The notes under the pieces were generated by a model, which made no database searches, was not told the DNA's origin, and saw nothing but the letters and a program-made list of their open reading frames with translations. Below, one piece after another: positions 1-17,081 of a stretch of DNA of 17,081 nt. Source of the stretch: Candidatus Methanoperedentaceae archaeon. GTDB lineage: Archaea > Halobacteriota > Methanosarcinia > Methanosarcinales > Methanoperedenaceae. Within the stretch, counting starts at the first letter, position 1, and each line of letters opens with the position of its first letter. A program made the position numbers and the translations under genes. The stretch lies in the NCBI GenBank assembly GCA_013331375.1, contig DUGO01000095.1, positions 4,078-21,158 on the forward strand. Direction: 5' to 3'.

Positions 1-738
1 GTTTACGGGCGTCTGGTTGAGCTCATTGCCGAGAGCATCAACCATGCCAAGCACGCTCTCGTCGACGTAGTATTTTCTTGCGGTGTCATGGCAGGCATTA
101 CAGGTCTCACTCATGGCTTTGAACCTTTTTGCGAAATCTCTGAAGTGCGCCTTTGCCATTTCGGTCTGCCCCTGCGAGATATCGGTTTCTATCCCTACAT
201 AGCTTGCATCCACAAACTGCATGATCCGTGAAAATCCCACATGCTGACCCGTCACGGGGTCATTGACTGTTACGGCTGAGAAATTCTTCCAGTGGTATTT
301 CTGCTTGACCTCTGACATGGTCGCAACGTGGCAGTTAAAGCACACCCTGCCCACATTTTCATACGCCTCCATAACACTACCCGGATTCCCCGTTTCAAGA
401 GCTTTTCCGAGTTCCCGGACAGGCTCATCCGGATATCGACCGTTCCATTCAGGTACCATCCCGGAGACCTCCTCATACTTTGTCTTGAACCTGTTGAAAT
501 CCTTTGAGGCGTTCTGCGGGTCTCCCTCTGAGAGGTCCGCGACAATGCTTGTGAATGAAGTGCCAAGTTCTATCATGCTGAAGAGGTAGAGCGGTTTATC
601 GGTTCTTGGGGGATAAAAATCCTCGAGTGACTTCGGGAGCGGGGTTTCGGGTGCTTTTTTTTGGAGGGCGCTGGTGAAGCCGACAATTGCAATAGCGGCG
701 ACCAGTATGCCCAGGGCTATCAGAGTTATTCTTTTCAT
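1..738 (-). CDS. c-type cytochrome with at least two CxxCH hemes, 3' end outside the window
   Basis: The reading frame is open from the ATG at 736-738 to the window edge (246 codons, no stop). A strong Shine-Dalgarno AGGAGG lies at 745-750, 6 nt before the start. Residues about 4-24 are a hydrophobic segment after MKR, an export signal or membrane anchor, so the protein should act outside the membrane. Two heme c motifs are visible: CFNCH (residues 133-137; 328-342) and CNACH (213-217; 88-102). Each ends a helix-rich stretch of about 80-130 residues. That resembles tandem cytochrome c'-like or Tll0287-like sensor bundles, but I cannot settle the family. More hemes may follow beyond the edge. 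It is divergent from a lipoprotein gene. Extracytoplasmic cytochromes are common in ANME/Methanoperedens-type archaea and Methanosarcinales, where they serve in electron transfer. The role here is inferred. Confidence 0.8.
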   Translation of the reverse strand, partial: MKRITLIALGILVAAIAIVGFTSALQKKAPETPLPKSLEDFYPPRTDKPLYLFSMIELGTSFTSIVADLSEGDPQNASKDFNRFKTKYEEVSGMVPEWNGRYPDEPVRELGKALETGNPGSVMEAYENVGRVCFNCHVATMSEVKQKYHWKNFSAVTVNDPVTGQHVGFSRIMQFVDASYVGIETDISQGQTEMAKAHFRDFAKRFKAMSETCNACHDTARKYYVDESVLGMVDALGNELNQTPVN

Positions 739-742
739 GATT

Positions 743-820
743 AACCTCCTATTCATCAATGCTGCAGGCTCATTTAATGTGAGCCCAAGTAATTTTACAC
801 GTTCAATAATCATAAATGTT
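743..820 (-). promoter_or_regulatory. Cytochrome gene upstream region: ribosome binding site, inverted repeat, TATA-like box
   Basis: Read on the minus strand, a TATA-like ATTTATGATT lies near 807-816, which would place the transcription start near 785-790. A 6-bp perfect inverted repeat (GGCTCA, 7-nt loop, TGAGCC; 767-785) falls just downstream of that start. AGGAGG at 745-750 is the ribosome binding site. The repeat could be an operator or a 5' leader hairpin. The RBS is clear; the promoter and operator are guesses from position. Confidence 0.4.
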
Positions 821-868
821 ACGCTTTTCACACTTTCCGGGTCGCGAACATTTTTCAACAATTTTCAA

Positions 869-3924: not shown

Positions 3925-4905
3925 TTACTTCATCAGGTCCTGATCTTTCCGCCGCCTGTCGAACTCAGCCTTTATCTTCTGCGCCTCCCTTATGATGTCA
4001 CCTATGCCCTCACTGTCAATCTCGGTCTTCATCCTGTCTGAGAGCAGCGTATCAGCATCCCTGGCGCCAACAAGTCCTGAGAGTTCGCTCGATGAGAGCT
4101 GCTCTTCCACGATCTTTTCAATTACTGCATGCTGGGTGCCGTCAATCGATAGCGATTCGCTCATTCCCCTGATATCCCCGAGATCGCTTTCCAGTCTTAT
4201 AAGCGTATCATAGCCCCTGCTTGAGAGTGACCCCGCCTCGTGTTTCTTAAGTATATCGAGTTCTGTTCGCAGTGATAAGATGTTTTTCTCGATATCAGTT
4301 ATGGATTTGTTCAGCCCCTCGCGGCTGGTTGTGTATTCGATTGAGAATGCATACACCCGTTCGATGGTAATGCTCGTGAATATCGCCACTCCCATCACAG
4401 CCGGGAACATGGCGCTCCAGGCTATATCTTTCGCATCATAGAACAGCAGGAGAGAGTACAGCACCAGGGCTTCTCCTCCCACAAGCCCTGCCGGGTCGAA
4501 CCTGCGGTGGATGTTTCTGGGCGTAGCCATAACAGCCATGAAATTCACAGCCGTCACAACCAGCATCACAATCCCGATTATGAACGGGAACGCAAAGTGC
4601 CTGATTATGTCATACCTTCCTGCAAGGCTGAGGAGCGCAACGATCAGCAGGGATATTCCAACGATGAACCCATTAATTTCTTTGAATTGTTTGAGCGCTG
4701 GCAGGAATTTCAGCCTTTTTTGCTGGAACTTGACCGCTATGGTGAGCAATATGATTGCACCTATCGCCGCGGGGAAAACCGGGTTTTTCAACACATTCCA
4801 CCTGTTCAGCTGGACAAGCGCTGAAACAACAAAAAGAGACACTCCAATGATGATATTTACAATGGAATGCTCAAGAATGTCTTCAACTTTGATTTGGAGT
4901 TTCAT
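3925..4905 (-). CDS. Six-TM membrane protein with cytoplasmic coiled-coil tail, unknown function
   Basis: A 326-residue protein. Six hydrophobic segments lie at about residues 14-33, 43-60, 78-95, 104-126, 141-156 and 163-184. TM1-2 and TM3-4 look like an internal duplication: both pairs have the pattern NR/GR + short loop + F-P-x-x-I-G-x-I/V. The C-terminal 140 residues are soluble, charged and helical, with heptad-like stretches about 195-222 and 300-320. I recognise no enzyme, transporter or receptor signature. It follows pheA by 48 bp but seems to have its own TATA box (4938-4949), and precedes trpB2 by 36 bp. Its placement in an aromatic amino acid cluster may be chance. Confidence 0.75.
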   Translation of the reverse strand: MKLQIKVEDILEHSIVNIIIGVSLFVVSALVQLNRWNVLKNPVFPAAIGAIILLTIAVKFQQKRLKFLPALKQFKEINGFIVGISLLIVALLSLAGRYDIIRHFAFPFIIGIVMLVVTAVNFMAVMATPRNIHRRFDPAGLVGGEALVLYSLLLFYDAKDIAWSAMFPAVMGVAIFTSITIERVYAFSIEYTTSREGLNKSITDIEKNILSLRTELDILKKHEAGSLSSRGYDTLIRLESDLGDIRGMSESLSIDGTQHAVIEKIVEEQLSSSELSGLVGARDADTLLSDRMKTEIDSEGIGDIIREAQKIKAEFDRRRKDQDLMK

Positions 4906-8166: not shown

Positions 8167-9417
8167 ATGACAGGAACAGAAAGTTTTCAGGTAGGCATTT
8201 TTGAGAATTTGATGAGCAGCCAGCAGATATTTGAGAACAGGGAAGTGCTTCGGCATACATACACCCCGGATTATCTTCCTCACAGGTCCGAGCAGATAAA
8301 CAGCCTGGCGACAGTGCTTGTGTCTGCGCTGAGAGGAGACACTCCATCGAACGTACTGATTTACGGAAAGACGGGCACGGGTAAGACTGCAGTGGCGAAG
8401 TACGTGGGCAAGGAACTTGAGAAATCAGGGGACCTTCGTGGGGTCCAGTGCAAGGTGATTTACATAAACTGCGAAGTCATAGACACGCAGTACAGGCTCC
8501 TGGCGCATATAGCGAGGCATTTCGACAAGGACGTTCCAATGACAGGCTGGCCCACTGACCAGGTGTACTCAGAGTTCCGCGACTCTCTCGACAGGGAAAA
8601 ACGCGTAGCCATCGTGGTGCTGGATGAGATAGACAAGCTCGTGCGCAAGGGCGACGATGCGCTCTATAACCTGTCGCGCGTGAACACTGACCTCAAAAAA
8701 GCGCGTCTCAGCCTCATAGGCATATCGAACGACCTGAAATTCACCGAATTCCTTGACCCCAGGGTCAAAAGCTCGCTCGGCGAAGAGGAGCTTGTATTCC
8801 CGCCTTACGACGCCAACCAGATCCGCGATATCCTGATGCAGAGGGCAGAGATGGCGTTCAAGAAATCGGTGCTTGAGGAGATGGTGATACCTCTCTGCGC
8901 CGCCTTTGCTGCCCAGGAGCACGGGGACGCGCGCAGGGCGCTGGACTTGCTCCGGGTCTCGGGTGAGATAGCCGAGCGCGCAAAGGCTTCCGTTGTCGGA
9001 GAAAGGCACGTGAGGCAGGCACAGGAGAAGATAGAGATAGACAGGGTCGTGGAAGTGGTGCGCACGCTGCCCACCCAGTCCAAGCTCGTGCTGTTGAGCG
9101 TGCTCCTGCTGAACAACGGGGCGGACACAGAGAGCCTCACCACGGGCGAGGCGTACCATGTGTACAGGCAGATGTGCAGGGAGATAGGAGCCGAGGTGCT
9201 GACACAGCGGCGCATCACTGACCTGATATCCGAGCTGGACATGCTGGGCATACTGAACGCTGTGGTCGTGAGCAAGGGCAGGTACGGCAGGACAAAGGAG
9301 ATTTCGATGAGCGTGCCACTTGAGAGCACAAAGAGCGCGCTGTTCGAGGATTACAGGCTCAAGCCGCTCGTGGATTTCAGGGCACCCCAGACAGCGATGC
9401 AGATGAAGCTCTATTAG
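8167..9417 (+). CDS. cdc6: Orc1/Cdc6 replication initiator
   Basis: A 416-residue AAA+ ATPase that binds ORB elements, melts the origin and helps load the MCM helicase. Walker A is GKTGTGKT (residues 67-74), Walker B VVLDEID (150-156), sensor 1 GISNDLKF (185-192) and sensor 2 GDARRALDLLR (253-263). The initiator-specific stretch LDPRVKSSLGEEELVFPPY (196-214) is present. The C-terminal about 120 residues form the winged-helix DNA-binding domain. Full length; ATG preceded by GAGGTTGG. It follows the ORB cluster directly, so autoregulation is likely. Its TAG stop overlaps the convergent signal peptidase stop. Paralogs elsewhere cannot be excluded. Confidence 0.96.
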   Translation: MTGTESFQVGIFENLMSSQQIFENREVLRHTYTPDYLPHRSEQINSLATVLVSALRGDTPSNVLIYGKTGTGKTAVAKYVGKELEKSGDLRGVQCKVIYINCEVIDTQYRLLAHIARHFDKDVPMTGWPTDQVYSEFRDSLDREKRVAIVVLDEIDKLVRKGDDALYNLSRVNTDLKKARLSLIGISNDLKFTEFLDPRVKSSLGEEELVFPPYDANQIRDILMQRAEMAFKKSVLEEMVIPLCAAFAAQEHGDARRALDLLRVSGEIAERAKASVVGERHVRQAQEKIEIDRVVEVVRTLPTQSKLVLLSVLLLNNGADTESLTTGEAYHVYRQMCREIGAEVLTQRRITDLISELDMLGILNAVVVSKGRYGRTKEISMSVPLESTKSALFEDYRLKPLVDFRAPQTAMQMKLY

Positions 9418-9971
9418 AAGATGGAGTGAACTGTAAGAGGCAGGTAGCCGACAAAGGGTATGCGGAATCTTGCCACACCCACCACCCATTCCTCCTTGAC
9501 AGGCGACATGTAGCTCACGCTGCCCTCCTGGTCGAACTTCTGGTTCGTTCGCGGGTTATCGCCCTTGGTGATATAGCCAGCGTAAGGCGCAGGAGGACCT
9601 CCGTCCCACATGGGCTCACCTTTTTCAACAAAATACATCGCTCTGTGTATCACTGGAGTCCCGCCCTGTCCCATCTTCTGGTACAGGATGACGTCCCCGT
9701 AATCGCCGAAAGACTTGTATCCTGTAGCCATTCCTTCCTCACGCGTCATGACTGTCGTATGGTCAGCTCCCTCTTTTATCACAAGGTCGCCGATCTGCAT
9801 ATTGGGTTCCATGCTGCCGCTTTCAACAGCGACAAGCGGATAATAGGTGCCGAGCAGGAGCTGTGAGACAACCATGAAAATGCCCACGACCGCAAACACG
9901 TAAATCAGGTCGCGCAGAAGCCCTGCAAGGAAATCGTCGCTCTCCCTGAGCCACTTGATTGCATCATTCAT
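9414..9971 (-). CDS. Archaeal signal peptidase I (S26B, Sec11-like)
   Basis: A 185-residue membrane peptidase that removes signal peptides from exported proteins. One transmembrane segment (about residues 22-40) precedes the catalytic domain. The nucleophile is S53 in ESGSMEPN. H109 in VIHRAMYF replaces the bacterial lysine, as in archaeal and eukaryotic Sec11. D138 in KGDNPRTNQ is the conserved acidic residue. A second hydrophobic stretch near the C-terminus (about 170-181) may be interfacial. It is encoded opposite to its neighbours, convergent with cdc6 (4-nt overlap) and divergent from DP1 with 41 bp between starts. A TATA box at about 9996-10006 (minus strand) would give a leader of only a few nt. 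Confidence 0.92.
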   Translation of the reverse strand: MNDAIKWLRESDDFLAGLLRDLIYVFAVVGIFMVVSQLLLGTYYPLVAVESGSMEPNMQIGDLVIKEGADHTTVMTREEGMATGYKSFGDYGDVILYQKMGQGGTPVIHRAMYFVEKGEPMWDGGPPAPYAGYITKGDNPRTNQKFDQEGSVSYMSPVKEEWVVGVARFRIPFVGYLPLTVHSIF

Positions 9972-9978
9972 CAGGGCT

Positions 9979-10006
9979 ACCTTTATGGTGGAGGGCGATA
10001 TAAGGT
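9979..10006. promoter_or_regulatory. Overlapping divergent promoters of signal peptidase and DP1 genes
   Basis: Minus strand: CCTTATATCG (about 9996-10005) lies about 29 nt before the signal peptidase ATG at 9971. Plus strand: CCTTTATGGTG (about 9979-9988) lies about 29 nt before the DP1 ATG at 10013. Both predict leaderless or short-leader mRNAs, and each transcript would start close to the other's TATA box. Based on position only. Confidence 0.45.
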
Positions 10007-10012
10007 TATTTC

Positions 10013-11491
10013 ATGCCACAGGGTCAGGTGCAGGTAGTGCAGCGGTTCGCAGAAGCTGGTTACCAGATAAATCCTGAAGCGGTCGCCAGGATAATGACCC
10101 ACGAGTCGCCGCAAGAGCTGATTAATCTCACTCTCAAGACCCTGAGCCCTGACGTTATTGTGGTGTGCCCCGAGCACCTGTGCGTGCAGCAGGAAGCAAG
10201 GAAGAAGCAGGTCACTGAACAGGTCGGGTCTGAAAAGGTCAAGGGCGCGGCACATGACATCAGGGTGCTGTTTGACGTGCCTGAGAAAACGTCAGGGATT
10301 GGCGATTACGAGGAATTCGTCTCGTACTTCAGGGACAGGTATGCCAGGCTCAGCGAGATGCTGAGGATACGGCTGAACGAAAGAGGGATGAGCGCAAGAC
10401 CGATAGAAAGCCTGAGGAAAGTGGACGGGAGGGACGTATCTGTCATCGGCATTGTGGCTGAAAAGAGGACCACGGCGAACGGGCACCTGCTGGTCGAGAT
10501 CGAGGACACGACTGGAACGGTTTCCGTGCTCGTGCTAAAGGACAAGGATCTCTTCAGCGAGGCTGGGAAGATAATACTTGACGAGGTCATAGGAGTCACG
10601 GGTTCGCTTTCAAAGGACAAGCGTGCCATCTATGCGAACTCCATCATGTCCCCCGACATGCCAGCTCCGCAGAGCCAGGCAAGGCTCGCGGGCAGGGACG
10701 GCGCCGGGAAAGCCGTGCTGATATCAGATACGCACGTGGGCTCAAAGACATTCCTCGAAGGCGCGTGGAACAGGTTCGTTGAGTGGATGTGCGGCGACTC
10801 GGGTGATGAGAGGCAGAGGGAGCTTGCGTCCCAGGTCAGGTACGTGGTCGTGGCAGGCGATGTGGTTGACGGCATAGGCATATTCCCGGGTCAGGAAAGA
10901 GAGCTGCTCATCAGTGACATCTACGAGCAATATGAAGCTGCAGCCGGTTATTTCAACGCACTGCCCGCGCACGTGAAGCTGGTGATAGCCCCGGGCAACC
11001 ATGACGCGGTGCGCCAGGCTGAGCCGCAGCCGCATTTGCCCGAGAGAATTACAAAGTCGTTCAGGAACGCAGTGTTCGTGAGCAACCCCTCGATAGTCGA
11101 GCTTGACGGGACAGGCATACTCATCTACCATGGTCGCTCAATAGACGACCTTGTTTCGAACGTGCCCGGCATATCCTACAGCGACCCTGCAAAGGCGATG
11201 GTGGAGATGCTGAGGAGGAGACACCTCTCACCGATATACGGCGGAAGGGTGATGGTCGCGCCCGAGCGCACGGACGGTTTTGTCATCAATAACCCGCCTG
11301 ACATCCTCCACTGCGGGCATGTGCATACGGTCGGGACGACACGATATAAAGGCGTGCTGGCTGTGAACAGCGGCACATGGCAGAGCCAGACAGAGTTCCA
11401 GAAGCGTATGAACCTGACACCAGTGCCTGCAAGGGCGCATGTCGTGGATTTGAAGAACCTGTCCACGCAGGTGCTCAATTTCTATTCGTAA
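10013..11491 (+). CDS. polB: DNA polymerase D small subunit DP1 (3'-5' exonuclease)
   Basis: A 492-residue small subunit of the archaeal replicative polymerase PolD, pairing with the DP2 catalytic subunit and proofreading through its Mre11-like nuclease. An N-terminal helical region (1-115) is followed by an OB-fold domain (about 138-215) and the calcineurin-like phosphoesterase domain (about 233-485). Metal ligands are visible: SDTHVGS (238-244), AGDVVDG (281-287), PGNHD (327-331), YHGRS (372-376) and CGHVHTVG (434-441). All nuclease motifs are intact, unlike the eukaryotic B-subunits. Its TAA lies inside the MsvR-like operator of the downstream Hdr operon. Closeness to cdc6 and the origin matches conserved synteny in some Euryarchaeota; DP2 is not in the window. 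Confidence 0.95.
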   Translation: MPQGQVQVVQRFAEAGYQINPEAVARIMTHESPQELINLTLKTLSPDVIVVCPEHLCVQQEARKKQVTEQVGSEKVKGAAHDIRVLFDVPEKTSGIGDYEEFVSYFRDRYARLSEMLRIRLNERGMSARPIESLRKVDGRDVSVIGIVAEKRTTANGHLLVEIEDTTGTVSVLVLKDKDLFSEAGKIILDEVIGVTGSLSKDKRAIYANSIMSPDMPAPQSQARLAGRDGAGKAVLISDTHVGSKTFLEGAWNRFVEWMCGDSGDERQRELASQVRYVVVAGDVVDGIGIFPGQERELLISDIYEQYEAAAGYFNALPAHVKLVIAPGNHDAVRQAEPQPHLPERITKSFRNAVFVSNPSIVELDGTGILIYHGRSIDDLVSNVPGISYSDPAKAMVEMLRRRHLSPIYGGRVMVAPERTDGFVINNPPDILHCGHVHTVGTTRYKGVLAVNSGTWQSQTEFQKRMNLTPVPARAHVVDLKNLSTQVLNFYS

Positions 11492-11613: not shown

Positions 11614-12660
11614 GTGGAACTAACGGCAGAGTCTATCTCATGCTATCAATGCGGGAAATGCACATCGATTTGCCCTGTGCGCAGGGTCAGCAAGACCTCG
11701 CCGCGCGGCGCGATATACAGCTCAAACGTTTACAGCGACAGGAAGGATTCAGTCTGGACCTGCCTGACATGCGGGCTGTGCCCGATGGAATGCCCGCAGG
11801 AAGTGGATTTCCTGAAATTCGTCAGGGAACAGCGGGCGGGGCGCAAGCCTCTTGACGTGGCTCACCAGGGAGTGTTCACAGAGCTCGCTTCACTGATGTC
11901 TGTGCTTGACGGGAAGGCGGTGATAAAGACAGGGCTTGCGAGCGCGGAATCGAAGTACGGCTACTTCCCGGGATGCGCGGGATATTTCGACCTGCTGCTG
12001 CATGACGTCGGCGTGAAGTTCAGCGAGGTCGGAGAGGCGTCCGTGATGCTTCTCGCAAAAATCGGCATCGCACCCAAAATCATGGAAATGAAATGCTGCG
12101 GGCATGACGTCTTATGGCAGGGCAAAAAGGACGTGTTTGACAGGCTTGCGGGATACAATACCGACTATATCAGGAAAAGCGGCATAGATACGCTTGTAAC
12201 AGGCTGCGCCGAGTGCTACAGGACATTTTCGCTTGACTATCATCTTGGCGAGCTCGGCGTCAGGGTCGTGCACATTGCAGAGCTGCTGCCCGGGCTCGGA
12301 TTGAGGATAGGCGAAAAGGTCACGTACCATGACCCGTGCAGGCTCGGGAGGCACATGGGCGTGTACGATGCTCCGCGGGCAGCGCTTACAGCCAACGGTG
12401 TCGAGCTCGTCGAGATGGCGCACAGCAGGAAGGATGCGCTCTGCTGCGGCGTGAGCAATTTCATGAACTGCAATGAGCAGACAAAGGCGCTGCGTATGAT
12501 GCGGCTGGATGAGGCTTCGGCGACCGGCGCCAGGACGATGATTACGACATGCACCAAATGCCTTGCGCACCTGAACTGCCTGAGAAACGACGGAGAGCCT
12601 GAGAAGACCTACAGCTTCGAAGTGGTCGACCTGGCAACCTACCTTGCGAGGCACCTATGA
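11614..12660 (+). CDS. HdrD-like protein (HdrC-HdrB fusion) with two ferredoxin sites and two CCG domains
   Basis: A 348-residue Fe-S protein. The HdrC-like part binds two [4Fe-4S] clusters: C10/C13/C16/C20 (CYQCGKCTSICP) and C50/C53/C56/C60 (CLTCGLCPMECP). The HdrB-like part has two CCG domains: C121, C161-C162, C198/C201 and C242, C277-C278, C313/C316. In HdrB/HdrD such domains hold non-cubane [4Fe-4S] clusters that reduce disulfides. No membrane segment is seen. It is first in an operon with hdrC, hdrB and hdrA, and its TGA overlaps the hdrC ATG (ATGA). The GTG start is weakly supported: the first Cys then falls at residue 10, whereas relatives usually have 15-30 residues before it, and an upstream in-frame ATG lies beyond a UAG. 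The substrate (CoM-S-S-CoB or another disulfide) cannot be read from the sequence. Confidence 0.85.
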   Translation: MELTAESISCYQCGKCTSICPVRRVSKTSPRGAIYSSNVYSDRKDSVWTCLTCGLCPMECPQEVDFLKFVREQRAGRKPLDVAHQGVFTELASLMSVLDGKAVIKTGLASAESKYGYFPGCAGYFDLLLHDVGVKFSEVGEASVMLLAKIGIAPKIMEMKCCGHDVLWQGKKDVFDRLAGYNTDYIRKSGIDTLVTGCAECYRTFSLDYHLGELGVRVVHIAELLPGLGLRIGEKVTYHDPCRLGRHMGVYDAPRAALTANGVELVEMAHSRKDALCCGVSNFMNCNEQTKALRMMRLDEASATGARTMITTCTKCLAHLNCLRNDGEPEKTYSFEVVDLATYLARHL

Positions 12661-13223
12661 TAAAGACAGAAGAGCTTGACCCCAACTTCAAGTACGAGAT
12701 AGCGTCCATGCCGGGCGGTGAGAGGATAAAGTACTGCTTCAACTGTACAGGCTGCACGGTCTCCTGCCCTGTGAATGAGATAGACAGGGAGTTCAATCCC
12801 AGGAAGATACTGCGCCAGTCGCTGCTTGGCATGCGGAAAGAGGTGCTGTCGAGCGAACTCATCTGGCTCTGCTCCTCGTGCTATGCCTGCTACGAGCACT
12901 GTCCTCAGGACGTTCGGATAACGGAAATTATGGGCGCTCTTCGCACCATAGCTGAGAAGGAAGCGCACAGGGGCAATATAGCGGTACCCTGCGACAAGCG
13001 CAAGTTCGATAGCGCCTTCACGGGCTCGATAAAGAAGCACGGCAGGGTATATGAGGCGATGACAATCGCAGGATTCATATTCAGGACAAAGGGCATCGGG
13101 GGCATGCTCGCATATACGCCAATGGGACTGGCGATGCTGCGGAAAGGCAAGCTACCGCTGCTGCCGCATGGGATTAAGGGTAAAAAGCAGGTAAAGGCAA
13201 TCTTCGAGATGATGCACAGATGA
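12657..13223 (+). CDS. hdrC: Heterodisulfide reductase subunit C
   Basis: A 188-residue electron-transfer subunit linking HdrA to HdrB. Two ferredoxin sites are present: C27/C30/C33/C37 (CFNCTGCTVSCP) and C72/C75/C78/C82 (CSSCYACYEHCP). The rest is helical, and the C-terminal half (about residues 110-188) is basic and hydrophobic without a convincing membrane span. The length matches soluble HdrC. Starts with ATG overlapping the upstream TGA and ends with TGA overlapping the hdrB ATG, indicating coupled translation and fixed stoichiometry. Confidence 0.92.
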   Translation: MIKTEELDPNFKYEIASMPGGERIKYCFNCTGCTVSCPVNEIDREFNPRKILRQSLLGMRKEVLSSELIWLCSSCYACYEHCPQDVRITEIMGALRTIAEKEAHRGNIAVPCDKRKFDSAFTGSIKKHGRVYEAMTIAGFIFRTKGIGGMLAYTPMGLAMLRKGKLPLLPHGIKGKKQVKAIFEMMHR

Positions 13224-14185
13224 AGTTCTCATACTATCCCGGATGCACGCTGCACGGCTCTGCTTCCGAATACGATATCTCGACAAGGGCGGTGTGCAGG
13301 GCGCTCGGCATCGAGCTTGTGGAGATAGAGGACTGGAACTGCTGCGGCGCGCTTGAGGGCAGCTCAAACAAGGCACTCTCAACTGCGCTATCGGCGCGAA
13401 ACATAGTGATAGCCAGCAAAACCAGCCTGCAGCTTGTGATGCCATGCAGCATTTGCTCGCATAACCTTGCAAGGGCTGATGTGTCTATCAGGGAGGATAG
13501 CCGGCTTCGCCAGTCAGTCGAACAGGCGCTCGGCACGTCATATACAGGTGTGAGGATGAAGCACCTCCTGGACGTCATGGTCAACGAGTTCGGTCTTGAG
13601 AACCTCAAGGGCAGGGTCACAAGACCGCTAACAGGCATCAAGGCAGCGCCCTACTACGGCTGCCTGCTTGTGAGACCGTCAAAGATATGCAGGTTCGACA
13701 ACCCCAAGAACCCTGTAACCATGGACAACCTCATCCGCGCACTCGGCGCAGATAGCCCTCAGTTCCGGCACAAGGTCAAGTGCTGCGGCGGAAGCCTGCT
13801 CATGGGGAAGGAGGACATAGCCCACAATCTATCGCTCAATATATTGTCCGAGGCAAAAGCAGCAGGCGCAGACTGCCTTGTAGCAGCATGTCCCATGTGC
13901 CACACAATGCTTGACGGGCAGCAGGGAATGATAGAGAAGCACCATGACGTGAAGCTCGACATGCCCGTCGTGTATTTCACGCAGCTCATTGGCATCGCCC
14001 TGGGGCTTGGCGAAAAGGAGCTGGGGCTCGACAGGAACATGGTATCGGCATCCAGGCTTTTGGATTCGATATGCAAGAAACAGCAGGATGAAAAAATGCA
14101 GGAAAAGCGGGAAAAGCAGGACACGGGGAATACTGACGGGGACATGGGGCATCCGGGCGGGCATGCGGGAGGGATGGGCAAATGA
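13220..14185 (+). CDS. hdrB: Heterodisulfide reductase subunit B with a Gly/His/Met-rich C-terminal tail
   Basis: The catalytic disulfide-reducing subunit, 321 residues. CCG domain 1 has C9, C41-C42 and C76/C79. CCG domain 2 has C148, C188-C189 and C224/C227. All ten cluster ligands for two non-cubane [4Fe-4S] clusters are kept, so catalysis is expected. The core ends near residue 285, as in other HdrB proteins. About 36 further residues form a charged Lys/Gln/Glu run, then a low-complexity Asp/Gly/His/Met tail, which is unusual and might bind metal or be disordered. It overlaps hdrC upstream and the hdrA ATG downstream (ATGA). Confidence 0.93.
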   Translation: MKFSYYPGCTLHGSASEYDISTRAVCRALGIELVEIEDWNCCGALEGSSNKALSTALSARNIVIASKTSLQLVMPCSICSHNLARADVSIREDSRLRQSVEQALGTSYTGVRMKHLLDVMVNEFGLENLKGRVTRPLTGIKAAPYYGCLLVRPSKICRFDNPKNPVTMDNLIRALGADSPQFRHKVKCCGGSLLMGKEDIAHNLSLNILSEAKAAGADCLVAACPMCHTMLDGQQGMIEKHHDVKLDMPVVYFTQLIGIALGLGEKELGLDRNMVSASRLLDSICKKQQDEKMQEKREKQDTGNTDGDMGHPGGHAGGMGK

Positions 14186-17081
14186 AGGGCTCGGTTGCTG
14201 TCATAGGCGGGGGCGTTGCAGGCATACAGGCATCGCTCGACCTTGCAGAGAGCGGCTTTAAGGTATACCTTATAGAGTCGCGACCAAGCATTGGAGGCGT
14301 GATGTCGCAGCTTGACAAGACCTTCCCGACTAACGACTGCGCGATGTGCATCCTGTCACCCAAGCTTGTTGAGGCTGGCAGGCACCCCAACATCGAATTG
14401 CTATCATACACTGATGCGCTGTCTGTAAGCGGGAGCGCAGGTGATTTCAGGGTAAAGATAAAGAAAAAGGCACGGTATGTGGATGCTGCAAAGTGCACGG
14501 GCTGCGGCACGTGCACGGAGAAATGCCCGGTGAAAGTGCCTGATGAGTATAACGCAGGCACGAGCAAGCGCAAGTGCATTTACATACCGTTCCCGCAGGC
14601 GATACCCAGGGTGGCGACCATAGACAGCACGCGATGCCTGTACCTCACCAAAGGTAAGTGCGGCAACTGCATGAAGGTGTGCGGTCCGGGCGCGGTTGAT
14701 TATACCCAGAAGGATGCAGAGGAGGAACTGTCAGTCGGGGCAGTCATACTCGCGAGCGGATTCGCGCCCTTCGATCCGAAGGAGCTTTCCCAGTACATGC
14801 CTGAGCATCCCAACGTTATAACAGCCCTGCAGTTCGAGCGCCTGCTCTCAGCAAGCGGACCCACGCAGGGGCATATCGAAAGACCGTCCGACAAGAAGAA
14901 ACCGCAGCGTATAGCGTTCATCCAGTGCATCGGCTCGCGCGACCCGCATCACGGGAGAAACCACTGCTCCTCGGTCTGCTGCATGTACGCCACAAAAGAA
15001 TCCATCATAGCAAAGGAGCATGAGCCCAATCTTGATATTACCATCTTCAACATAGACGTCCGCGCATACGGCAAGGGTTTCGAGGAATTCTACCGCCGGG
15101 CGAGCGACGAGTACGGCATCCACTATGTGAACTCCCGCCCTCCTGAGGTGCATGCCGATGCCAACAATAATTTATCTCTCAGATACGAGGATTTCAAGTC
15201 CGGGGATGTGAAGACCTCGGGCTTTGACATGATAGTGCTATCCATTGGTCTTGACCCTGCTCCTGCCACAACAAGGCTTGCGGCAGCCTCAGGCATTGCG
15301 ACAAACGAGCTCGGGTTCATCGCCACATCGCTTGAGAGACCGCTTGAGACAAGCGTGCCCGGTATTTACGTATGCGGCGTCGCGCAGGGACCCAAGGACA
15401 TACCGGATACTGTGGCGCAGGCTTCCGCCGCGGCGTCAAAGGCGGCGTCCCTGCTAGCGAGCGAGCGGGGCAAGCTCGTGTCAGAGAAGACATACCCGCC
15501 CGAGAAGCCAGTAGCAGGAGAACCAAGGGTGGGCGTGTTCGTGTGCCACTGCGGTATCAACATCGGCAGCGTTGTTGACGTGCCGAAGGTAGTGGAGTAT
15601 GCAAAGACCCTGCCCGGCGTTGTCCATGCGCATGAGATGATGTATGCCTGCTCGTCCGACTCACAGGTCGCGATAAAGGACGCGATTGAAAAGCAGGCTC
15701 TGAACAGGGTGGTTGTTGCATCCTGCACACCCAGGACGCATGAGCCCCTGTTCCAGAACACGCTGCGTGAGGCAGGACTTAACCCGTTCCTGTTCGAGCT
15801 TGCCAATATCAGGGAGCACTGCTCATGGGTGCACATGAAGGAAAAGGAGAAGGCGACTGAAAAGGCAAAGGGCATTGTCAGGATGGCGGCTGCAAAGGCT
15901 GCGCTGTACCTGCCGCTCTACAGGCAGAAAGTGCCTCTCGTGAACACCGCGCTCGTGCTCGGCGGCGGCGCGGCTGGCATGACCACAGCGCTTGAGATCG
16001 CGGACAAGGGCTTTGATGTCACGCTCATCGAGAAAGAGGCAGAGCTCGGCGGCATGCTGCGCTATCTCGGCACGCTCCATGACGGGAAGAAGGCAAAAGA
16101 CGTACTTTCAAGGCTCGTGGGGCTTGTCAGGAGCACGCCCGGCATCAAAGTGCTTACAGAGGCGAAGCTCACGAAGGTGGACGGCTACCTCGGCAACTTC
16201 AGGGGCAAGATCACTGCGAAGGGTGCGGAGCAGGACATCACATTCGGTGCTGCGGTCGTTGCCACGGGCGCAGGCGTGCTTGAGGCGCCGGAAAACTCTG
16301 GAACCGCTGTCTTAACCCAGATGCAGCTTGAAAAAATGATCGCAGGGAACAGCGTGAGGGCAAGCGATGTCGTGATGATACAGTGCGCGGGCGCAAGGGA
16401 AAAGGGCAGGGAATACTGCGCAAGGACGTGCTGTGTCGAGGCTGTGAAGAACGCGATTACGCTGAAGCAGGCGGGCGCGAACGTCTATGTGCTGCACAGG
16501 GATATGAGGACGTTCGGCGTGTGGGAAGAGCTGTACAGGAAAGCGAGAGAGCTCGGCGTCATTTTTATTCGGTATGACAAAAAGCCGCAGATAAGTGAAG
16601 GTCACGTTACGGTGTTCGATGAGCAGTTGAACGATGAAATAGAAATATACTCAGACCTCGTGGTGCTATCCACACCCATGATACCAGGCAGGGACAGCGA
16701 GGAGATAAGCCAGCTGTTCAAGGTGCCTCTTGACAGGTACAAGTTCTTCCTTGAGGCGCATGTGAAACTCCGACCTGTGGATTTCGCCACAGATGGCATT
16801 TTCCTTTGCGGTACAGCAAGGGCGCCGGCTGATGTTACAGAGAGCATAAATCAGGGCTATGCTGCGGCATCAAGGGCTTCTGTACCTCTTATGAAGGGGT
16901 ATGTGCAGGCTGAAGCCATCACAGCGGTCGTTGACGAGGCAAAATGCATAGGATGCGGCTACTGCGTCTCTGTGTGTCCTTACCGCGCTGCTTCGATGAA
17001 TGAGAAGACTATTGTTGCGGAGGAAATCCCGTATATCACGAAGAAGTCGTACATCAACCCTGCATTATGCAAGGGATGCGG
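14182..17081 (+). CDS. hdrA: Tandem HdrA-HdrA fusion, flavin subunit of heterodisulfide reductase, 3' end outside the window
   Basis: At least 966 residues; ordinary HdrA has about 650. Module 1 (1-430): FAD loop GGGVAG (9-14), an inserted ferredoxin domain (C105/C108/C111/C115 and C152/C160/C163/C167), HdrA-type cluster cysteines C249, C262, C266-C267 with K272, and the C-terminal FAD segment YVCGVAQGPKDIPD (397-410). Module 2 (about 447 on): the canonical HdrA N-terminal domain (C455/C457, C490, C515, C547), FAD loop GGGAAG (594-599), cluster cysteines C735, C746, C750-C751 with K756, no inserted ferredoxin, then the C-terminal ferredoxin pair starting C922/C925/C928/C932 and cut at C963/C966. 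HdrA houses the bifurcating FAD. Two FAD modules in one chain suggest a covalent pseudodimer. The ATG overlaps the hdrB TGA. The electron-input partner is not visible. Confidence 0.92.
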   Translation, partial: MKGSVAVIGGGVAGIQASLDLAESGFKVYLIESRPSIGGVMSQLDKTFPTNDCAMCILSPKLVEAGRHPNIELLSYTDALSVSGSAGDFRVKIKKKARYVDAAKCTGCGTCTEKCPVKVPDEYNAGTSKRKCIYIPFPQAIPRVATIDSTRCLYLTKGKCGNCMKVCGPGAVDYTQKDAEEELSVGAVILASGFAPFDPKELSQYMPEHPNVITALQFERLLSASGPTQGHIERPSDKKKPQRIAFIQCIGSRDPHHGRNHCSSVCCMYATKESIIAKEHEPNLDITIFNIDVRAYGKGFEEFYRRASDEYGIHYVNSRPPEVHADANNNLSLRYEDFKSGDVKTSGFDMIVLSIGLDPAPATTRLAAASGIATNELGFIATSLERPLETSVPGIYVCGVAQGPKDIPDTVAQASAAASKAASLLASERGKLVSEKTYPPEKPVAGEPRVGVFVCHCGINIGSVVDVPKVVEYAKTLPGVVHAHEMMYACSSDSQVAIKDAIEKQALNRVVVASCTPRTHEPLFQNTLREAGLNPFLFELANIREHCSWVHMKEKEKATEKAKGIVRMAAAKAALYLPLYRQKVPLVNTALVLGGGAAGMTTALEIADKGFDVTLIEKEAELGGMLRYLGTLHDGKKAKDVLSRLVGLVRSTPGIKVLTEAKLTKVDGYLGNFRGKITAKGAEQDITFGAAVVATGAGVLEAPENSGTAVLTQMQLEKMIAGNSVRASDVVMIQCAGAREKGREYCARTCCVEAVKNAITLKQAGANVYVLHRDMRTFGVWEELYRKARELGVIFIRYDKKPQISEGHVTVFDEQLNDEIEIYSDLVVLSTPMIPGRDSEEISQLFKVPLDRYKFFLEAHVKLRPVDFATDGIFLCGTARAPADVTESINQGYAAASRASVPLMKGYVQAEAITAVVDEAKCIGCGYCVSVCPYRAASMNEKTIVAEEIPYITKKSYINPALCKGC

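Follow-up and report, generated by a model that had tools for sequence, protein, structure and literature searches.

A fused two-module HdrA of Methanoperedenaceae whose retained parts may rebuild one trans half-site in cis

Introduction

HdrA flavoproteins take part in complexes of several kinds. In QmoABC two HdrA-like flavoproteins with an HdrC-type partner are separate chains, and QmoC is a membrane protein. In the homodimeric HdrABC-MvhAGD, Elp-Hdr and Fdh-Hdr complexes (5odc, 8rvu and 7bkb) all domains are present on each HdrA chain. Here a gene is analysed in which two modules, each homologous to those HdrA, are fused into one chain and the domains are divided between them. It lies in the window, the whole stretch of 17,081 nucleotides that was analysed (positions 4,078 to 21,158 of contig DUGO01000095.1, assembly GCA_013331375.1, of a Candidatus Methanoperedentaceae archaeon). 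The protein is of a known kind, its architecture and the main idea of a pseudo-dimer with two bifurcations being already in print; the way the parts are shared out suggests to us that one canonical half-site may have been rebuilt within a single chain.

Fused HdrA3 and HdrA4 of anaerobic methanotrophic (ANME) archaea were described by Chadwick et al. 2022 (PMC9012536), who proposed a pseudo-dimer and listed clusters with HdrBC, MvhD, HdrD-like, several HdrA and FdhAB-like genes. Like these, the gene in the window consists of two fused HdrA genes with complementary Cys197 and N-terminal domain, but that paper puts the N-domain in the first half and Cys197 in the second, whereas in the window the Cys197 half comes first. 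According to the same paper a very closely related HdrABC-MvhD-FdhAB-like cluster is present in the cultured genus Methanolobus. The tandem HdrA5/6 and HdrA12/13 pairs of that paper show the same complementarity on two unfused chains. In a 2025 survey (Microbiol Spectr, PMC12054007) such proteins are type II HdrA, mostly of class A3 (139/176), derived from the A6 and A12 type I classes, of which A12 is like a stretch close to the type II C-terminus; two bifurcations are held to be possible for them, the Glu/Lys pairs being usually but not universally kept in both halves. The class A3 gene cluster holds HdrBC, MvhD, FdhB/FrhB and FdhA-like genes and sometimes a second HdrA and HdrD. The fusion in the window has the two thioredoxin-reductase domains, with HdrD-like, HdrC and HdrB genes of such a cluster upstream of it, and no difference from class A3 as excerpted was found in the window. 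Double HdrA was also reported from Asgard and TACK archaea in a fusion survey (PMC11237513), and confurcation by an HdrABC-FrhB complex was proposed in Methanoperedens (Arshad 2015, PMC4683180). The HdrA of the methylenetetrahydrofolate reductases of Moorella thermoacetica and Sporomusa ovata (PMC9430772) likewise has two thioredoxin-reductase-like domains per chain and HdrBC and MvhD genes; it differs in its partner, MetVF, in the Glu/Lys pair being present in one domain only in S. ovata, and in an added GltD domain in Moorella.

Results

Division of domains between the two modules

The open reading frame (ORF) of the fusion starts with ATG, runs for 966 codons and is still open where the contig (C80) stops at 21158, which is window position 17081. 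The contig edge thus falls inside the gene, which is about 50 residues short; the open frames of 25 other relatives with a long match to it are 996-1090 amino acids long. The best NCBIfam model was HdrA2, with 945 bits and thus under its curated cut-off of 1100. In the PDB alignment the protein matches solved HdrA chains in three stretches: residues 6-371 align to 147-509 of 5odc HdrA with the inserted ferredoxin included, residues 447-618 to 3-174, the N-terminal domain, and residues 824-963 to 486-627. The features are as follows.

14182..17079, + strand: fused two-module HdrA (the published HdrA3 or type II class A3), 966 residues, 3' end incomplete at the contig end
14182..15471, + strand: module 1, residues 1-430, with a thioredoxin-reductase-like FAD domain but neither N-terminal CHCG domain nor C-terminal ferredoxin, by alignment to 5odc 147-509
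14338..14349, + strand: C53/C56 (5odc C194/C197), C56 being the putative Cys197-type ligand of the partner module's N-domain cluster
14473..14706, + strand: inserted ferredoxin of module 1, residues 98-175, expected to hold two [4Fe-4S] sites
14836..14838, + strand: E219, equivalent to E356 of M. thermolithotrophicus HdrA in a gapless alignment block to 5odc
14926..14997, + strand: CX12CX3CC cluster motif of module 1 (C249, C262, C266, C267) and K272, equivalent to K409 in a gapless 5odc block
15520..15942, + strand: CHCG N-terminal-type domain of module 2, residues 447-587, with C455, C457 and C490 (5odc 3-143)
15943..16896, + strand: thioredoxin-reductase-like FAD domain of module 2, residues 588-905, without inserted ferredoxin and without Cys197-type residue
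16330..16332, + strand: E717, module 2 counterpart of E356 by motif position
16384..16449, + strand: CX10CX3CC cluster motif of module 2 (C735, C746, C750, C751) and K756
16915..17079, + strand: C-terminal ferredoxin of module 2, truncated where the contig stops, with C922, C925, C928, C932, C963 and C966

An earlier note on this DNA had described an HdrA fusion with two FAD modules at 14182..17081, the first without the CHCG domain and with the inserted ferredoxin, the second with the CHCG domain and a C-terminal ferredoxin and without the inserted one, both with the cluster motif and the following lysine (K272, K756). The ORF, the alignment to 5odc and the relatives bear out the fusion itself; the alignment and a cysteine script bear out the layout of module 1, alignment and cysteine counts that of module 2, and the same script, with K272 falling on K409 of 5odc, the motifs and lysines. 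The note had missed that a Cys197-type ligand is present in module 1 only and that the gene is incomplete. The script placed the cysteines of the inserted ferredoxin at C105, 108, 111, 115, 152, 160, 163 and 167. The C-terminal ferredoxin begins at residue 912 (912-966 present), and relatives carry two further cysteines in it beyond the last residue of the fusion. E717 and K756 were assigned as counterparts by eye from motif position, the 5odc alignment skipping that stretch, so that the Glu356/Lys409 pair is present in both halves, as E219/K272 by alignment and as E717/K756 by motif position.

The four type I parts (N-domain, Cys197, inserted and C-terminal ferredoxins) are together in neither module, and the protein is thus not a canonical type I HdrA. 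It has the type II class A3 (HdrA3) trait of two thioredoxin-reductase FAD domains on one chain, and its first half is A6-like in lacking the N-cluster domain and the C-terminal ferredoxin and retaining the inserted one. The modules are complementary: only module 1 has C56, and only module 2 has the N-domain. The HA4-type cluster and the inserted ferredoxin stand around one flavin in module 1 only, and the arm parts are found in module 2 only.

Conservation of the retained parts

Conservation was followed in two overlapping sets. The broad set comprised 120 non-redundant fusions (the window and 119 others) from 142 fusion ORFs, after three window copies and 20 frames with identical cores had been left out; L012, L023 and L056 (one gene with an in-frame stop) did not pass the length filter. 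Among its rows are eight fusions whose alignment begins only at about residue 100-145 and an exceptionally long ORF (L127), and it kept only frames colinear with the window, which favours the window's module order. The near set comprised the window and 119 proteins, from the best 120 of 8000 scored. Counts are from the broad set unless the near set is named.

The N-domain cysteines C455, C457 and C490 were each present in 120/120 rows, C56 was Cys in 117/120, one of the remaining three being a gap, and the module 1 cluster cysteines were present in 119-120 of 120. Chance resemblance was rejected on these grounds, the cluster ligands being invariant or nearly so. The module 1 pair was invariant, with Glu at E219 and Lys at K272 in every row, whereas in module 2 Glu was found at E717 in 112/120 and Lys at K756 in 106/120. 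Module 2 thus departs from Glu or Lys in 17/120 rows, and module 1 in none. On a FastTree tree built without those columns these departures amount to at least six changes for Lys, at least three for Glu and at least seven for either. In going beyond methane-metabolising archaea, and in the finding that module 2 departs from Glu/Lys in some lineages and module 1 never, the present sample extends what the excerpts of PMC12054007 report.

A CxxCxxC motif was sought in residues 399-450, after module 1, and found in 0/120 rows. Residues 600-734 of module 2 held at most two Cys in any row, where an inserted ferredoxin would need eight, and residues 626-660 held none in 119/120 near-set rows. The chain has one N-domain copy, between the modules, in 119/119 rows; none was found ahead of module 1 in these 119, four of which begin inside module 1. 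When the order was checked beyond colinear frames, two cluster motifs were present in 124 of 137 distinct frames of at least 750 amino acids, with the N-domain between them in 124/124; four of the 137 had the N-domain and fewer than two cluster motifs. Fusions of reverse order may have escaped, because the loci were gathered by likeness to the window. The stretch joining the modules (window residues 420-455) was 36-37 residues long in 116/120. The spacing of 11 against 13 between the first two cluster cysteines, remarked on in the earlier note, is real, its figures being residue offsets (10 and 12 residues between), and is a family trait, with x12 in module 1 in 103/120 and x10 in module 2 in 114/120.

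The cores of the modules differed in rate. In the near set the module 1 core was closer to the window than the module 2 core in 119/119 comparisons (mean identity 0.685 vs 0.571), and among 39 taxa the module 2 core had the longer path in 92.4% of taxon pairs, with a median ratio of 1.29.

Unfused counterparts and module phylogeny

The same division of parts, in the same gene order, was found in 28 unfused neighbour pairs, some from close relatives, in which an HdrA of 432-467 amino acids, with the features of module 1, precedes one of 559-674 amino acids with those of module 2; they look like the published tandem pairs. The Cys197-type motif was present in the first gene of 28/28 pairs and in the second gene of 0/28, and the inserted-ferredoxin motifs were missing in the second gene of 25/28. 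A simple CHCG regular expression failed in three second genes, yet their alignment starts in that domain.

In a tree of 135 rows, with 39/120 fusions and 21/28 unfused pairs, module 1 and the unfused first genes fell on one side of a branch with support 80 (not starred), in a surrounding part with most of the type I HdrA, 5odc among them. Module 2 and the unfused second genes fell on the opposite side, in 63 rows with support 98 (starred), three of which were labelled type I. The separate phylogeny of the modules that the earlier note had called for thus sets the halves on opposite sides of the tree, each with the same half of other fusions and with its unfused counterpart; on this tree the two modules are therefore different kinds and not a fresh duplication, and a recent internal duplication is unsupported. 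A quick tree had placed two Lokiarchaeota fusions (L105, L106) among unfused genes. Two independent fusions were dropped as an explanation, since holding all fusions together was as good or slightly better (p value of the approximately unbiased test, p-AU, 0.552 for module 1 and 0.516 for module 2), and a single fusion event is not rejected by these sequences. The rejection of a clade of module 2 with the unfused second genes ('module 2 + split B', p-AU 1.06e-35) was a labelling artefact: the three 'type I' rows lie inside the clade, two of them at zero distance to rows listed as split B.

Distribution of the fusion

The source genome (G000; 1.65 Mb, 67% complete) belongs to Methanoperedenaceae (ANME-2d), in another genus (g1) than the BLZ2 genome (G011, g3). 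A match over at least 900 residues in the same order was found in 26/30 genomes searched, its own included, among them all 18 of Methanoperedenaceae. In a further genome (G019) the match was cut by the contig edge, and the three without a match were the three searched members of family f5. Genes about 70% identical occur in named Methanoperedens records. That the gene is an assembly chimera of two hdrA genes, for which it might be said that the contig end falls inside it, is ruled out for practical purposes by the same-order match in those 26 genomes and by these Methanoperedens genes.

A scan of species genomes (best 80 matches, 79 loci) gave colinear fusions in Bathyarchaeota, Lokiarchaeota, Helarchaeota, Freyarchaeota/Jordarchaeia, Thermoplasmata, Methanomassiliicoccales and Syntrophoarchaeum, and also in Planctomycetes, Fibrobacteres, WOR-3, Chloroflexi, Spirochaetes and Candidatus Desulfopertinax. 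The earlier guess of ANME or Archaeoglobales was half right: the source belongs to an ANME-2d family, and such fusions reach far beyond ANME. A plasmid look-up returned two records only, 40 and 30% identical.

Two further observations concern single lineages. In the LFW-280_4 fusion (L023, L056; G010:C56:12928-15843), which is counted among the 26 matches, an in-frame TAA splits the gene into frames of 632 and 388 residues, and either a sequencing error or a real break is possible. In Thermoplasmata bin33 and Methanomassiliicoccales bin396 (L100, L114, L129) several fused HdrA genes stand in a row, separated by MvhD genes.

Gene neighbourhood and partners

Upstream of the fusion lie three further Hdr genes.

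11614..12660, + strand: HdrD-like protein, two ferredoxin-type motifs and two CX..CCX..CxxC motifs
12657..13223, + strand: HdrC, two CxxCxxCxxxC motifs
13220..14185, + strand: HdrB, CX..CCX..CxxC motifs (non-cubane cluster type) in both halves, 4-nucleotide overlap with the fusion start

The overlap is of 4 nucleotides at every junction from the HdrD-like gene through HdrC and HdrB to the fusion. Identity to BLZ2 is 64% for the HdrD-like protein, 60% for HdrC, 62% for HdrB and 69% for the fusion. The order in BLZ2 is mcrD, HdrD-like, HdrC, HdrB, fusion, MvhD, type I HdrA, a 154-amino-acid ORF, MvhD, an FrhB/FdhB-type gene and an FdhA-like gene; the other Methanoperedenaceae copies agree as far as their contigs reach, except for the 154-amino-acid ORF, found in BLZ2 only, and the variants described next.

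In 3/31 Methanoperedens-genus genomes (G005, G016, G044) HdrC-HdrB is replaced by one QmoC-like membrane protein beside a divergent fusion.

L048:4860-5969, L047:4863-5987 and G044:C66:18381-19484 (L147, L148): QmoC-like protein

It has two ferredoxin motifs and about five hydrophobic stretches, and the qmoC model gave 196 and 191 bits against a cut-off of 300. The named homologues among its best 120 matches were bacterial metagenome-assembled genomes, for example Zixibacteria (87%) and Aminicenantes (66%); in 294 genomes of the phylum there were 32 matches, all in one other family and at most 49% identical. The variant is possibly a quinone-linked, F420-coupled HdrA complex. Methanoperedens and QmoC were not found together in the literature among the matches listed, 'Qmo' being absent from PMC7327174 and 'QmoC' from PMC9012536.

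In these variants the fusion is 55-56% identical to that of BLZ2, as against 83-96% for the HdrD-like protein, type I HdrA, second MvhD and FrhB, with the HdrD-like protein at 83-86%. In a fourth locus (G014) HdrC is 57%, HdrB 47% and the fusion 63% identical to BLZ2, as against 70% for the HdrD-like protein and 74-89% for what follows the fusion. In four loci, then, the fusion diverges or is swapped jointly with HdrC and HdrB while most flanking genes stay alike, which suggests HdrC-HdrB as the partner proper to the fusion and the type I HdrA as that of the HdrD-like protein.

Other genes were noted in passing. A second Hdr cluster in the family (L037 = G014:C28; L053 = G000:C194) holds HdrC, HdrB, an HdrA of 654-658 amino acids and MvhD; in G014 it adds an HdrD-like gene and an unfused HdrA pair, and in G000 the contig breaks off shortly after MvhD has begun. 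At window 1-864 on the minus strand, running off the window start, there is a 321-amino-acid open frame with three CxxCH motifs and weak, sub-cut-off similarity to MtrC/MtrF-type multihaem cytochrome domains. Window 8167-11491 on the plus strand holds a Cdc6/Orc1-type gene and, after it, a gene for a calcineurin-like phosphoesterase of the kind found as replicative polymerase small subunit, which has OB-fold and DNA_pol_E_B domains; this region possibly lies near a replication origin.

Discussion

The solved homodimers, as described in published cryo-EM work, offer a model for the fusion: in them the swinging arm of one HdrA, made of the N- and C-terminal domains and the MvhD-type donor, serves the flavin of the other HdrA. 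On this model the parts retained in the fusion would be one canonical trans half-site rebuilt in cis, the other half-site having been dismantled, to which we give a probability of about 0.6. The chain would be a heterodimer of two HdrA kinds in one polypeptide. Module 2 would be the arm, with the CHCG domain, the C-terminal ferredoxin and the docking of MvhD; C56 of module 1 would complete the N-domain cluster of module 2; and module 1 would carry the bifurcating FAD (E219/K272), with its C249-C267 cluster as the high-potential exit to HdrC-HdrB and its inserted ferredoxin as the low-potential port. The parts missing from each module are those that the opposite half-site would need, and the module 1 flavin is taken as the canonical bifurcating site. 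Its Glu/Lys pair, unchanged in 120 rows, agrees with this, as do the repeated changes of the pair in module 2 and the faster evolution of the module 2 core. The complex probably links F420 to ferredoxin and coenzymes M and B (CoM-SH/CoB-SH), the F420 side running through MvhD, FrhB and an FdhA-like scaffold whose genes lie downstream in relatives; its direction during methane oxidation is most likely confurcation to F420. This half-site reading of an HdrA fusion was not found in the excerpted literature searched.

Several points weigh against it. The pseudo-dimer is proposed from sequence rather than from a structure model. In the near set module 2 has Glu in 120/120 and Lys in 119/120, and among its 17 departures in the broad set some are mild, two being Glu to Asp with Lys kept and two Lys to Arg with Glu kept. 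Cluster cysteines of module 2, present in 119-120 of 120, are as invariant as those of module 1. The rate excess of the module 2 core is small, and the unfused pairs show it as well, though less strongly (ratio 1.14). Both genes of 28/28 unfused pairs retain the lysine, which, together with the near set, argues for a Lys-dependent job of the module 2 flavin in many lineages. For all these reasons of retained residues, cluster and mild departures, the second flavin in ANME probably still works, as a relay or as a second bifurcating site. Moreover, the downstream donor genes lie past the window's contig end and are known from relatives, and the window's genome, 67% complete, yielded paralogues of the type I HdrA and of FrhB but no orthologue of either.

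The strongest competing explanation is that both flavins bifurcate or confurcate, with two coupled events per chain and the module 2 flavin working through its own cluster to a second HdrC/HdrD-type protein. E717 and K756 in the window, the near-set counts, the lysine of the unfused second genes and the nearly invariant module 2 cluster all speak for it, the operon does hold a second protein with two CX..CCX..CxxC motifs, the HdrD-like one, and the 2025 survey argues likewise from retained residues (PMC12054007, as excerpted). We nevertheless hold it to be rather unlikely: the arm is missing from module 1 and the inserted ferredoxin from module 2, which leaves the module 2 flavin without known partners, Glu or Lys departs in 17/120 broad-set fusions, and the close likeness of the HdrD-like protein to that of BLZ2 in the QmoC-type variants, beside so divergent a fusion, fits an HdrD-like protein that serves the downstream type I HdrA. 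The earlier note had supposed a dimer mimic with two non-equivalent flavins, allowing double bifurcation; the mimic fits the sequence evidence and had already been published (excerpts of PMC9012536 and PMC12054007), and double bifurcation is neither upheld nor refuted, only the module 1 flavin having the full set of partners described for the solved homodimers (arm of the other module, high-potential cluster and inserted ferredoxin). A special form of the idea, which we regard as speculative and unlikely, is that in ANME the module 2 flavin is a second working site of bi- or confurcation without opposite arm or inserted ferredoxin, the single module 2 arm swinging between both flavins in two unequal serial steps. 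If so, lineages whose module 2 lacks Glu or Lys would be the same fold turned into a one-site enzyme, and would offer natural comparison pairs.

Quite improbable, in our estimate, is that the module 2 flavin is a mere relay or structural leftover and that the chain finds its partner in trans, in another fusion or in the type I HdrA of the cluster. Such an HdrA follows the fusion in 25/27 Methanoperedenaceae loci, the exceptions being the window and one locus cut by a contig end, and in BLZ2 it has the N-domain, the Cys197-type motif and the inserted and C-terminal ferredoxin motifs; yet in L043, L045, L046, L100 and L129 it is absent beside the fusion within the examined DNA, and the constant length of the joining stretch is as expected for a fixed arrangement in cis, of which it is no proof.

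In the Hdr homodimer it is hidden which flavin is fed by which arm; the fused HdrA has the asymmetry built in. If the half-site reading is true, point changes in either module would test trans-arm bifurcation by Hdr directly, which is impossible in a symmetric dimer. The fusion also bears on how ferredoxin and CoM-SH/CoB-SH may be recycled in nitrate- and metal-dependent methane oxidisers.

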